A stretch of DNA of 64,000 bases, from positions 1-64,000 of the forward strand of contig JAAAUF010000057.1 in NCBI GenBank assembly GCA_015499985.1, read 5' to 3'. Below, piece after piece: positions 43,754 through 48,537 of the stretch (position 1 is its first letter; each line of letters starts with the position of its first letter). The notes under the pieces were generated by a model that searched no databases, was not told where the DNA came from, and saw nothing but the letters and a program-made list of their open reading frames with translations. The stretch comes from Haplosporangium gracile (lineage: Eukaryota > Mortierellomycota > Mortierellomycetes > Mortierellales > Mortierellaceae). The translations under genes were made by a program, and so were the position numbers.

Positions 43754-44383
43754 TTAGTGCTTCTCCTCCTTCTTGCCGGTGACTATTCAGACAACAAATA
43801 AAAAAGGCATTAGAAACCTACTGTCAGAATATCATTGATGCCACATGTCCATAGAACAGATTCCAGTAGAGAAAGGCCAAGGCGACTTACAGTTGGGGTT
43901 GCGAGGATCGCTCTTGAAGGGCTCGCCTAATTGTAGTCAAATGATTAAAAAAAAAAGCATAGATTCGTTAGCTTTTCATGACTTTCCTCATTTGATGGTA
44001 TGTGGTGGCGTTTGATAACGGAATGCTAATAACAGATGAATTTCGTGCACTGAAATGATACTGCTCCATGAACCCTCGATAAAAGTAGTTAACGCCGTCC
44101 TTAAAGCGCTGTATTATGTCGGGTTCCTGAAGATTACAAGGCATCGTCTATGTATATTTTCCCGTGTCGGTTCACTGGTGTGTCGGTTTTTTGTTCATCG
44201 TGTGGCAGTCCTCGGAAGACATCGGGGGAAACTGATCCTTGGAAAATACATCGAAATGACGACGAGGGGAAACGTACTCTTCAAAGCGGCCTCCTGAGCA
44301 GCGTTGATGAGGTAGAAAGTGACGACACCTCCAGCCAGGAAGGGAGCCATGGGGCGAAGGAAGGGAGTAGACCAGGCACGCAT
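43754..44383 (-). CDS. ATP18: ATP synthase subunit j (56 residues)
   Basis: A small membrane subunit of the mitochondrial F1Fo ATP synthase, in the inner membrane near subunit a. Three exons on the minus strand: MRAWSTPFLRPMAPFLAGGVVTFYLINAAQEAALK (ATG 44381-44383), then SEPFKSDPRNPN, then FTGKKEEKH with the TAA at 43754-43756; GT-AG introns, consistent phases. The yeast protein shows the same plan: an R-(F/A)-P/S-TP(I/F)L start, a helix rich in small and aromatic residues (PFFVAGAAVYYG) and the family mark NDPRNP. Here the mark is SDPRNPN. Too short to be found by a simple length cut-off. The gene lies only about 185 bp downstream of the decayed Fanzor gene, so this small gap must hold its promoter. 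Confidence 0.92.
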
Positions 44384-44567
44384 TTTGATGTGTTGCAGAG
44401 AGAGAGGGGAGAGAGTGAGGGATGTGTGTCAGAGAAATGCATCACGATCGTTTAAAGAAGTCAATATAATAGGACAATGAACGCCGTAGTTACGTCACCG
44501 AAGCGCGTAATTGTGGCGCCTCCTATAACCTCAATTCACATAGGATATGGTCGAAAAAAATCTTAAA

Positions 44568-47500
44568 CTAGCCTAGACGAATAGTCTTCTTGACGGGGGG
44601 CGTCTCCTCCTCCAGCGGGCCAGGGGGTGCATGCTTGACCGGAGTTGGGCTAGGCTGGCTTGTAGCTTGAGGCTCATCCATGCTGACGTCCTTGCCCCTG
44701 TCCTTGTTTTGCGCTCATACGAGGGTACCATCCGCATAGACTGGCTGCAGGTGGTGTGGTCACTCTTGATCCAGCAAATGTCCTTGAATAATGTTGCACA
44801 TGTTATGTCCAACTAGTTCGTCTCGGTGCATGAAGCTCTTGCAATGTAGACAATACAGTCGTCGGGTGTTAACTTGACCGACGAAGACCTAACAAACTGG
44901 GCATTTCTTGGAGGTATAAATTCATTTACTCTTACTCCTACGACAATGTATCCCAGAGATCTTGTCTTAGAAAAATATAAAATACAGAAGAGAACGGAAA
45001 CGGAGTGTTGTGTCAGTTACTGGTCATTGATTTTCAAACCACCAATTTGTTGACATAGACCGGCACTGTCCGCTCACCAGTCAGACAAAATATGAGCAAA
45101 AGGCGGTGTGGAGCGAAGAAAGGCCATAATTCGACTTGGACTCTCCGAGGCCGATCCTGATAATGACAAGTTGTCGTCCTGTCTCTTGGCGCCGGCGGAC
45201 CCTCCAACTATTCGCAATAATCGATCGGCAACCAGCCGAAATTTCTGTTCCCTGGCTCGTTGCGCGCTCCAGGCATTTTTCTTGATCGCTGCTTTGTTGT
45301 GGAAATCGTACAAAACAGTCTCCATCTCTTATCTCGCGTTGACATACTTCTTGACACTACCGTCCGGGCCTCGATGTGAGGGGAGATGGCTCTCTATGTC
45401 ACTGATTGACTGGCGCCCTTCCGTAGTCTCCATTCGTCGTCGTTCCAGCCATTTCCTGTGTTGGAGAGTTGGTTGATATACGGCTTTCTGTTTAACGGAC
45501 AGGCTGAAAGACGTTTGTGGCGGGGTCACAGTGCAATCTGATGCTGGCATTGACGCAGGCTGGGTGTTGATAGCGGTGATGGATGGCGTTATGGAGGCGC
45601 CCTTGGTGGCTGCGGCCGGCTCGGAGCTGGTACTGTGGAGCAGATGTCCTTGTCGACACGGCGGACGCGGCAGATTTCTTGGGCGGCAAAAAAGCGCTTG
45701 CGCCAACCAAGAACTCTTTACCCAGGTCAATGGCAAGGATCTTGATCTCGCTAGAAGGGCAGCCCCAAAACCGTGCGACGTCCTCTTTGGTCCTAATGAC
45801 GTTTTGGGTCTCCGTCAAAGGATCGTCAAGGCGGGAGGCTCGATCGTTGTATAGTCATCAAAAGCCATGTGCTGAAGCTCACACTTCAGTGCCGGGTTCC
45901 GCCAAAACAGTTCCACAAGCTCGAACTCCGTCAAAGTAATGAACCTATCCTTCATTGACGACATCGGCTCCAAGTATCGGGATTGTCCGCAAACTCTGTT
46001 CAATTCAAGAAAGTTTTGGATTGCCAACAGGGAAAGTTCGATCGTTCCCGTTGCCTCCGCTGGGAGGACCTCCTTCTTCTTCAAGATTTCAATATATTTT
46101 GTTGAAAGAGACATGAGACAGGGTTTAGAAACTCTATCCCTAAAGCTTTCAAAATATTGCAGAACCTTTTACATCCTCAACAATAGTTGTAGTTGTTATT
46201 ACCTTTTTGCAGAGTTTCAAAGAACCTTTCTTGTAGTGGATTTTGAGTTTCACGTAAAGCTGATGGGCGACAGCTGGGCTATTGTTGATGCTGGATACGC
46301 CAGCTTGGTCGGTGGGCCCGAGACGCCGTACAGGTTGTTCCTATTGAAAAACTCGCGGGCGAGCTCCACATTCGCGGTGGTTCTTCTTATATTCGCTGTT
46401 GCATCAGGTTGTGCCGAGTTCATGATAGCGTTCAAGAGTATCTGCAAAAATGGCTCCTGTTCATTATACTTGCTCTGCGGTCCTTGGTCATGTTCCTGAT
46501 CCTGTCTCTGACCGACGCTCTGTTTCTGGTTTGTCGAGTTGTTGAAAGCGGTAATTTCCTCGACGGTGATATCAGGACAGAGTTTCCTGAGAATCAGCTT
46601 GTCCATTTCGTCGACTTTCCGAGCAGACAGGTTCTCGAGGTACATGCTAATGCCGCGCTGCAAGGTCCTCGCTGCCTTCGAGGCCTGTTCGGCGACTTGT
46701 TGGAAGCCACTTCTGGTGCCTTGTATAAGGATGGATCGACGCTCGGCGGAATGGGTTATGTTTCTTGATATAGCACGCTTGGCGTTTGCCTGGACTGTTC
46801 CGAGAGTGAGAGTCCGTATAGGGCGATTAAAGTCCATGGCTGAGATATGGCCCTGTTTCTTGATCAAGTTTGTTGCTGGCTGGGGGTTGTAGTGTTTCTG
46901 TAATTTGTTAGAGGTAGCGCTAGTGGCCGTGTTATCCTCCGGCGATGGCTCACGCTGTTTCCAGGGCTTAAGCATGTACTTCTTGAACCCCTCAGGTGGC
47001 TCGTGCTCCAGCTTCCTCATCCGCGTCTTGATGGCATATCTGGGACGGTGCTTGTACCGCCGACCGGACTTGTGAGGTAGAGGTCGCTTATTAGGAGGCC
47101 TGTCCACGATACGAAATCGGTTGGGTATATCAACGTTACCCTCAGACGTAGTTGGGACAAATGCACTACTAGAATAAATAATAAAAAAGACACGCACCAT
47201 TAATAAAAAGATTCTTCATACCCTCCTGAACTTCAATCGTAACAAATCTTCATCAATCAGATAACATACGTCTATTGACGTCTGTGGTGCATAACGTCAC
47301 GGATCTGGACCAATCTCCGAAGAAACTCCTGGAGTTGTGCATCGGCATCAAATCCAAGAGGGGCAGCAAGGGGATCCGAGATTGTAAGTTCTCTGCAGCA
47401 GAAAACCTTCAACGCCGGATCAAAACGGTTTGCAGCAGAGAACCGTCAGTTGGACGCGGCCCAACTGTAGGTGGTGTTTAGTCACAACTGCCATCTCATA

Positions 47501-48111
47501 CCCCAGAAACCGCCTTTGTGACACAGGCCGCCAGAGATTGTCTCCACGTTCTCGTAAGCTGTCATGTCGCTATCACCCAACATGACGATATCGCCAGGCT
47601 TGAAATCACGAGCAATGGCGACATCCGCTTCGGACGCAATTTCTGGCAAGTTCCAGCCTTGACCGCGTAGATATTTCGTCAACATCATCCGAGAGTCTTG
47701 ACCAAGGTAGAATGTGTCACGGAGCATTTTCTCTAGTTTTTTGAAGGTAAGCTTGTGTGGACTGTGACCTCCTTCCAGCGATTTTTCCATATCCCGGATA
47801 CAATCCCCCGCTCCTGCCAGCGTGGTGTTATGCTTGTCTTGCCTCAAGGAGTTTGTATGTTGCTTCTCGACAGGAGAAGTTCCATCGAGGTAGAGTACCG
47901 CGGTTTCCTTGTGCAACTCACAGGAGATAAGGTGCCGCTCGACCACTTGAGGAGAGATGGATGGTAGTGGTAGTGGATTTGGGGTAGAATGAGACCAGTA
48001 GGTGCACGCAGAACTTGGAGCCTGGTGTTGGAGGAGTTCTGGGGACTCCTCGTATGAGTAGGGCCTCGTAACTCTTCTCCCTGATGAAGAGCCAGATCCG
48101 AGTACTTCCAT
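44568..48111 (-). pseudogene. Decayed XPG/FEN1-like plus Fanzor/TnpB-like nuclease fusion
   Basis: Part 1 (48111-47482) carries FEN1/XPG-type acidic motifs: YLDG (Asp76), ASEADVA (Glu160, Asp162) and GDSDM (Asp179, Asp181). After a frameshift at ETIS the same protein continues as IWRPVSQRRFLGYEM. Part 2 (47200-46250) has a basic linker (GRRYKHRPRYAIKTRMRK) and helices; 46114-45815 adds TEFELVELFWRNPALK. Part 3 is a TnpB-like nuclease: RuvC-I AIDLGKE (Asp at 45726-45728), VKQKAVYQPT, IESHLPSHRGPDGS, the helical REQKFRLVADRLLRIVGG, RuvC-II IGLGES (Glu 45141-45143), a zinc ribbon CPVC (44892-44903) and CLHC (44841-44852), and RuvC-III HRD (Asp 44820-44822). Lesions: frameshifts near 47540, 45820, 45690, 45165 and 44915; stops near 45326, 45084 and 44889-44891. 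Introns are also present. The upstream N-terminal part of an XPG fold is not seen, so the true start is uncertain. Confidence 0.85.
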
Positions 48112-48537
48112 GTTAGCGAGGAAGAGACTAGAGTGCCTCTTTTTTGTGTATGCGTGTATCGTGTTATGAGAAAGAGAAGTAGGAGAAAAGGGCGTGGGAA
48201 GGTTAAAAATCTTGTAAGTTACACGTCGACCGAAAATATGTCACCGCGTGTGAGGGAGGCCGATCTTATCACCAAATCAAATTGCCTATTCGGTGTTCGT
48301 TCTGAGAATACATCTGCTGAGGAGGGGACTGGTGTGGTGTATGTCAAACGGATACTATAATTATTTCCATGCCAAGTTTCAGCCAATGGTCCTTGACAGA
48401 GTAGAAACACTTACTTCACCGGAGATTATCGGATTGTATGAGCTTGATAATTTTATATTCTTTTTAATCTTCAGGGGAAAGAACTTACTTCATCCCCAGA
48501 CCTACTTCACTTCCACAAGAACAGCCATCAGTTCAAT
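48112..48537. promoter_or_regulatory. Upstream region of the 48.5 kb gene and decayed nuclease gene
   Basis: 426 bp between divergent starts. The open frame at 48293 runs into the next gene without a sensible N-terminus. No terminal inverted repeat is visible at this end of the nuclease pseudogene. Confidence 0.4.

Follow-up and report, generated by a model that had tools for sequence, protein, structure and literature searches.

An XPG/FEN1-like domain joined to a Fanzor1-like nuclease on terminal-inverted-repeat elements of Haplosporangium gracile

Fanzor1 nucleases, the closest described relatives of the gene reported here, were found by Bao and Jurka in MuDR-type elements without a transposase (PMC3627910). 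The TnpB/Fanzor superfamily follows the pattern D-X(125,275)-[TS][TS]XX-C4 zinc finger-X(5,50)-RD (PMC3627910), and Fanzors are marked by a displaced glutamate six residues before the zinc ribbon, by a DPG motif at RuvC-I that is near exclusive to them and, in the published search pattern as we read it, by a RuvC-I to glutamate distance of 120–160 (PMC10711439). Here, we analyzed 64,000 nucleotides of the Mortierellaceae fungus Haplosporangium gracile (“the window”: GenBank assembly GCA_015499985.1, contig JAAAUF010000057.1, positions 1 to 64,000), in which a decayed mobile element holds the remains of a gene, called XR below, that joins an XPG/FEN1-like nuclease domain to a Fanzor1-like one.

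A first-pass annotation of the window had listed an XPG-type acidic set, a basic linker, RuvC-I, a zinc ribbon, and RuvC-III in this order, and both the sequence and tblastn with 16 relatives bear it out. The motifs stand on the minus strand at 44.5–48.1 kb, in order but across several frames: EAD/DSD at ~47560-47635, AIDLGKE (RuvC-I) at 45714-45734, a GLGE string at ~45140-45156, and CPVC..CLHC with HRD at 44821-44915. When the whole window was searched, the 16 relatives matched at 44.66–48.10 kb only, with E down to ~1e-37 and with the motifs in the same order, which is far from chance. This copy is dead, as had been supposed; it is a pseudogene and the relic of a mobile gene family. Its tblastn matches are broken by several frameshifts, three or more stops lie in frame, and ~120–130 residues are missing ahead of RuvC-I, where the query P0062 skips from 453 to 582 while the window merely passes from 45839 to 45818. 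The element exceeds the gene, with a right terminus at 44472-44504 and a left terminus near 48360-48415 (Table 1). Pfam returned nothing above cut-off for eight window pieces taken singly, and no tRNA was found in the window.

The first-pass annotation had further argued that the ancestral protein was real, and relatives do have the two halves within a single predicted protein rather than as separate genes. Three homologue searches of a 5.8-billion-protein collection gave 148 (120 of them listed), 41, and 8 relatives; the first two were seeded on the RuvC/middle part and are uninformative on how often XPG halves occur without RuvC, and the third used the whole alignment as seed. Organism names among the relatives listed belong to genera that we take to be all Mortierellomycotina, and the remaining relatives are metagenomic or nameless. 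Both halves occur in 14 long proteins (1064–1358 aa; alignment A1) from 12 named taxa, including three marked partial (P0124, P0133, P0138) and three without the zinc ribbon (P0133, P0138, P0145). By regular expression, an XPG-I motif is present in 19 of the 155 proteins retrieved, a set with many partial sequences, and 17 of these 19 also have RuvC-I or complete zinc-ribbon motifs; as to the other two, P0143 has the second half by alignment and P0155, a protein of H. gracile, ends at a contig end. The protein comprises an XPG/FEN1/EXO1-type structure-specific 5'-nuclease domain (~300 aa), a basic linker (~110–130 aa) that is of low confidence in the structural model and probably flexible, and a Fanzor1-like part (~700 aa). 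A viral origin, and a prokaryotic one for the fusion, were set aside: viral contig scans with the RuvC-I piece and alignment A1 returned no relatives and a prokaryotic genome contig scan with A1 returned no fusion, the reach of these scans being relatives that share short conserved stretches.

FEN1 has seven active-site acids (D34, D86, E158, E160, D179, D181, and D233), and this seven-acid site is kept across the 14 long proteins. A D34-like residue is found in 10 of the 11 rows with letters there, the exception being P0126 with its misjoined exon; the D86-like residue is present in 12/12, the E158-like and E160-like (as D) residues in 14/14, the D179-like residue in 13/14 (N in P0143), and the D181-like and D233-like residues in 14/14. 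The predicted structure shows the XPG/FEN1 catalytic-domain fold, and Pfam XPG_I falls slightly below cut-off in three H. gracile exons. Genome-wide, PF00867 marks eight loci, five of the XR family and three strong ones that are probably housekeeping XPG-family genes. Compared with FEN1, EXO1, and XPG (Rad2), the XR half is divergent (14–19% identity in aligned structural rows) and differs in being joined to a Fanzor-like nuclease and in being mobile. XR could also be an ordinary Fanzor1 with a passenger N-terminus, i.e., an XPG part that binds DNA or is dead and non-catalytic, given that variable N-termini are known among Fanzors (PMC3627910, PMC10432273) and that in P0143 an N replaces the first aspartate of DSD. 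Since a dead appendage would have no need of active-site acids, their being otherwise kept at an overall identity to P0121 of 36–48% speaks against this explanation, which we regard as unlikely.

The second half had been assigned to the TnpB/Fanzor type, and this assignment stands: the RuvC-like part aligns with a superfamily match that includes both the zinc ribbon and RuvC-III, through PF07282 as well as the AlphaFold model. PF07282 scored 48.1, 41.5, and 40.5 bits in three H. gracile exons (cut-off 26.3) and matched 11 of the 14 long relatives, while, of 25 proteins whose zinc ribbon is complete, 22 conform to the superfamily pattern under a regular expression close to the published one. 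All 25 have a glutamate six residues ahead of the zinc ribbon. The conserved glutamate is the one at this position, in NE[YF]YTSKKCPxC, and not that of GLGE, which had been proposed as RuvC-II: the 11 aligned relatives covering the GLGE site show Q, K, S, or D, leaving its glutamate peculiar to the window copy among the aligned sequences. RuvC-I in 21 proteins reads DLG (11), DGG (4), DAG (4), DMG (1), or DPG (1), and because of this departure from DPG we call the half Fanzor1-like instead of filing it as Fanzor1. In the same 21 proteins, RuvC-I and the glutamate are 170–268 apart, and a spacing of 120–160 is found in 2 of the 25.

The half has the REC-WED-RuvC-TNB architecture of Fanzor1, and its AlphaFold model matches SpuFz, PpFz, and GtFz. 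Residues 419–1113 of P0121 match Fanzor1 (SpuFz, PpFz) over 480–494 residues among the best 50 of 604 chains (VIA-align on Foldseek's top 604), and other families may match as well. In PADLOC, Cas12f models hit 11 of the 14 members, the P0121 match lying at the zinc-ribbon end; we take this as a superfamily signal, not as defence. Overall, XR shares with SpuFz (Spizellomyces punctatus) and PpFz (Parasitella parasitica) the D-E-D order, the glutamate six residues before the C4 zinc ribbon, the [TS][TS]xxC and RD motifs, and repeat-bounded carrier elements; it differs in its N-terminal XPG/FEN1-like domain, a RuvC-I that is mostly DLG/DGG/DAG, a longer RuvC-I to glutamate distance, and insertion linked to a promoter motif (see below). 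In contrast to TnpB, Cas12f, Cas-phi, and TranC, which give structural scores below SpuFz and PpFz, XR is without the canonical RuvC-II glutamate. PF07282 marks 35 loci in the H. gracile genome (32 above cut-off), many without an XPG half in the matches seen, in some cases owing to a contig end.

At the genome level, the XPG half occurs at 15 H. gracile loci, and at nine of these the second half follows downstream on the same strand; four others run off a contig end and two resemble deletion derivatives (Table 1). The gene at locus L028 has five exons separated by four GT-AG introns of ~100 nt. Its public model, P0126, opens with part of an adjacent SWIM-finger transposase, joined on in error, and leaves out the probable true start of the first exon. 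An open frame that has an ATG of its own (MGLKGWFPFLRRKGY..) begins at L028:2145. A transposase of the Mutator-like element (MULE) type as part of the XR gene, hinted at by P0126, was rejected because the shared MULE piece differs in orientation relative to XR between L028 and L040 and because L028 has its own ATG exon. Distances in the N- and C-terminal halves correlate across 12 of the 14 proteins (P0143 and P0147 omitted; r 0.57, Mantel p ~0.0008), as expected if the halves have long been joined.

XR copies lie in elements with terminal repeats. A right-terminal motif (CTTCGGTGACGTAATTATGGCGCCCATT[GC]TCC..), first noted beside six divergent copies, has a core that occurs 53 times in the genome (≤2 mismatches), against none for a reversed control. 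Of 30 right ends retrieved, 13 are no more than 100 bp away from the end of a contig, a pattern to be expected where recent repeats interrupt the assembly. Inside at least 18 of the 53, XR follows in matching orientation, with the XPG part alone at C508; among those read, XR was not recognised inside the right ends of C482, C705, C1134, and C267. Left ends were collected by pattern and called XR-type when their inner sequence resembles the XR copies L033 and L037, and a 19-bp core is closely similar at XR-type left ends and at right ends. At C467 (L077) the left end reaches the XR start MGLFDWFPFIRRKGYNP within 262 nt, and at C618 (L078) XR sequence lies ~2.3 kb inside; the other XR-type left ends were typed by inner sequence near the end. 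One left/right pair (L075/L063) shows an adjacent 9-bp target duplication, TATCTTTGG (0/200 shuffles). SWIM-finger remnants occur at C217 and beside L028/L040 (SWIM 18.4 bits, below the cut-off of 19.6).

L037 (G000:C508) is a 1.2-kb derivative between left- and right-type terminal repeats, in which the XPG part alone was recognised. L071 (G000:C217:28950-30450), a short element, has 27-bp perfect terminal repeats (GGAAACAGGACAATGGGCGCGAGAATT), remnants of a SWIM-finger transposase, and no evident target duplication, and is possibly the relic of an autonomous partner.

Terminal inverted repeats are shared by MuDR/MULE transposons, XR elements, and the C217 relic. The MuDR-type Fanzor1 elements of Mucorales (ROr-4, PBl-3, MCi-4; PMC3627910) resemble XR elements in coming from fungal relatives and in having terminal inverted repeats; they have 9-bp duplications, of which XR elements show one clear pair, and no transposase inside, just as none was seen in the XR copies read. 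The available sections of that source mention neither an XPG domain nor targeting at a fixed distance from a promoter motif. XR elements look like a further step from such elements, in which a Fanzor gained a repair-type 5'-nuclease. Alternatively, XR itself might be the transposase, its two nucleases doing the cutting without any MULE enzyme: it is the sole gene recognised inside most readable right ends, and the crowding of right ends at contig ends is as recent repeats would produce. The 9-bp duplication of the one pair and the likeness of the repeats to those of the C217 SWIM-finger relic instead fit a DDE enzyme of MULE type acting in trans; TnpB and Fanzor have also been argued not to be transposases, and the Mucorales Fanzor1 genes sit in MuDR-type elements that lack one (PMC3627910). 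We consider a transposase role for XR improbable.

The elements appear to choose their target. With G[GA]AACAG taken as the start of the left repeat, TGACGTCA, the cAMP response element (CRE)/ATF site, lies exactly 12 bp outside it. Among 25 left-class pattern matches, which include several chance matches and old copies, 10 have TGACGTCA with ≤1 mismatch at this offset and none at 37 other offsets; none of 45 right ends has it outside at any offset. For XR-type left ends the figure is 9 of 12 (≤1 mismatch; 6 exact), and 5 of 2000 shuffles gave even one. Two ends of the C217-relic type, L095 (exact CRE) and L096 (two mismatches), were left out of this set of 12, and no clear CRE remains at the left end of the window copy. 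The right end bears TGACGTAA just inside the element. From 30 right flanks, 10 open frames were chosen for Pfam and six matched, namely SF3B1, PRP8, BRR2, ribosomal S13, ribosomal L1, and an RSE1/SF3B3-type propeller beside the C217 relic; all Pfam-matched genes downstream of right ends are housekeeping genes.

By family resemblance only, XR would be expected to cleave DNA with an RNA guide. A hairpin search 30–72 nt before TTCG gave stems at 22 of the 30 right ends, where 12.8 were expected (standard deviation 2.6; maximum 21 in 300 shuffles); as a sign of a guide RNA this excess is suggestive only, the copies being related. One recurring hairpin, 30–72 nt before TTCGGTGACG, is seen in 16 of 30 copies, with differing stems such as GTGTGT/ACACAC, GCATGT/ACATGC, GCGTGT/ACACGC, and GTATGT/ACATAC; it may be a guide-RNA scaffold or a DNA palindrome, and the window copy has no right-end hairpin of this kind. 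A UUCG hairpin at the right end was rejected as weak, with one-sided changes only.

Table 1 Features of the decayed element in the window and of related copies elsewhere in the H. gracile genome
Feature	Position or loci	Strand	Basis
Whole decayed element	44472..48415 (left boundary approximate)	minus	DNA similarity to the C215 copy over 44544-48387
Left-end inner motif ATTGGCTGAAAC	near 48375-48390		Left end of window element
XPG N-terminal start remnant (IWLFIREKSYEALL, similar to LWPFVKKNGYLPKLL), frame -1	47981..48097	minus	tblastn P0129 6-44
XPG/FEN1-like block (LYLDG..EK, SEADVAIA, GDSDMTAY), frame -2	47536..47946	minus	tblastn, all 14 A1 proteins; E: P0124 1e-21, P0133 7.6e-25
XPG block continued in other frame (frameshift)	47438..47536	minus	tblastn
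Basic linker and start of next helical part	46385..47122	minus	P0129 355-603, E 6e-33
Middle helical part, two frames (46200-46274, 45842-46099)	45842..46274	minus	P0062, P0129 matches
RuvC-I (AIDLGKEFLVGASAFLP)	45684..45830	minus	P0062 582-626, 60% identity
RuvC insertion (SVKQKAVYQP.. to VGGSAGAKR), in-frame stop	45170..45523	minus	P0062 667-779, 53% identity, E 1e-37
Canonical RuvC-II region (VIIRIGLGESKSNYGLSSLH)	45084..45194	minus	tblastn; relatives with forms like GVGLGQF
Displaced glutamate (VNEF), zinc ribbon (CPVC..CLHC), RuvC-III (MHRDELVGHNM), two frames, internal stops	44727..44965	minus	P0074 653-666, 667-730, 67% identity
Right terminus GCTTCGGTGACGTAACTACGGCGTTCATTGTCC	44472..44504	minus	Among the 53 matches to CGGTGACGTANTNNNNGCGYCCATT in the genome, here with 2 mismatches; none for the reversed control
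Host gene ATP synthase j chain (open frame, first part), just past right end	44195..44428	minus	Pfam PF04911, E 4e-12
Right ends with XR inside	C94, C129, C183, C215, C275, C457, C508, C554, C578, C594, C630, C641, C652, C680, C707, C718, C1022, C1058		
XR-type left ends	L072-L082, L094 (contigs C61, C93, C165, C277, C467, C618, C798, C811, C1076, C1147, C248)		
Right flanks with housekeeping genes	L049, L051, L059, L066, L068, L069, plus window 44195-44428		
Loci with both halves	C707, C215, C129, C718, C441, C578, C425, C749, C247		
XPG-half loci running off contig end (4)	C841, C472, C44, C969		
XPG-half loci resembling deletion derivatives (2)	C360, C508		

Taken together, the anatomy of XR (fusion, motifs, element) is strongly supported, and we favour, with moderate confidence, the reading that XR is a Mortierellomycotina fusion carried on terminal-inverted-repeat elements and works for the element as a guided nuclease. 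Several observations weigh against it. XR is known from gene models, sequence, and predicted folds alone; RuvC-I is mostly D[LGA]G, and one cysteine is absent in 2 of 11 zinc ribbons. Rfam had no match in the window element, RNAalifold gave five pairs for 28 right ends, none covarying or changed on both sides, and only 16 of the 22 right-end hairpins are of one kind, the other six being unlike it. No transposase was found inside any XR copy read, and target-duplication pairs agreeing at 8/9 positions are within chance (87/200 shuffles reach 8). Three of the 12 XR-type left ends have no CRE, which is likewise missing from the left flanks of L033 and L036, both XR copies, and of the C217 relic, and L037 and L029 have two CRE mismatches at the 12-bp spacing (L029 if one inserted base in the repeat is allowed). 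The guide-RNA results and the departure of RuvC-I from the Fanzor DPG would also suit an RNA-independent pair of structure-specific nucleases that lost its guide RNA and took a role in repair or regulation, an explanation to which we give a low probability. That XR is a gene-prediction artefact, adjacent XPG and Fanzor genes having been joined by annotators, is very improbable: public models of the family are error-prone, as P0126 illustrates, but order and conserved residues are constant across the junction in the 14 proteins from 12 named taxa, GT-AG introns lie inside L028, and at 9 of the 15 XPG-half loci the second half follows in the same orientation further downstream, the rest being at contig ends (4) or deletion-like (2). 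The first-pass annotation had raised the possibility of a new nuclease class, a term that is too strong because each half has a known fold; what looks new is the joining of the halves, together with the element's choice of target. Full-text literature searches, with most subscription papers outside their coverage, found among the matches listed no description of an XPG-Fanzor fusion and no report of a Mutator-like insertion preference for TGACGTCA, and no Fanzor-type nuclease with a natural end-processing partner turned up.

Under the favoured reading, a MULE-type transposase whose ends are the same would mobilise XR elements in trans, and XR would be directed by a guide RNA transcribed outwards from the right end of the element into the flanking DNA. 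In the manner of TnpB, the RuvC half would cut the empty target, on the sister or at the homologous site; the fused 5'-nuclease would trim flaps or resect the 5' end, and repair would then copy the element back, or copy it into the site that was cut. The CRE that the element separates from its host gene would be replaced by TGACGTAA of the element itself, so that the insertion would be tolerated. More tentatively, this may amount to a two-nuclease eukaryotic homing system, in which an RNA-guided Fanzor1-like enzyme with its own flap/resection nuclease serves an element that inserts 12 bp downstream of the CREs of essential genes (spliceosome, ribosome, ATP synthase), supplies a substitute CRE, and makes the host dependent on the element end.

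If guided by RNA, XR would represent a nuclease of the Fanzor type that naturally has a second nuclease to process the ends, and it would bear on the role of TnpB and Fanzor for transposons and on how a cut leads to copying. For genome editing tools, a programmable nuclease that comes with its own flap/5' nuclease would offer a new point of departure. Insertion in strict CRE register before host genes would, for a DNA transposon, be an unusual way of targeting and may offer a clean system for studying promoter-safe integration.

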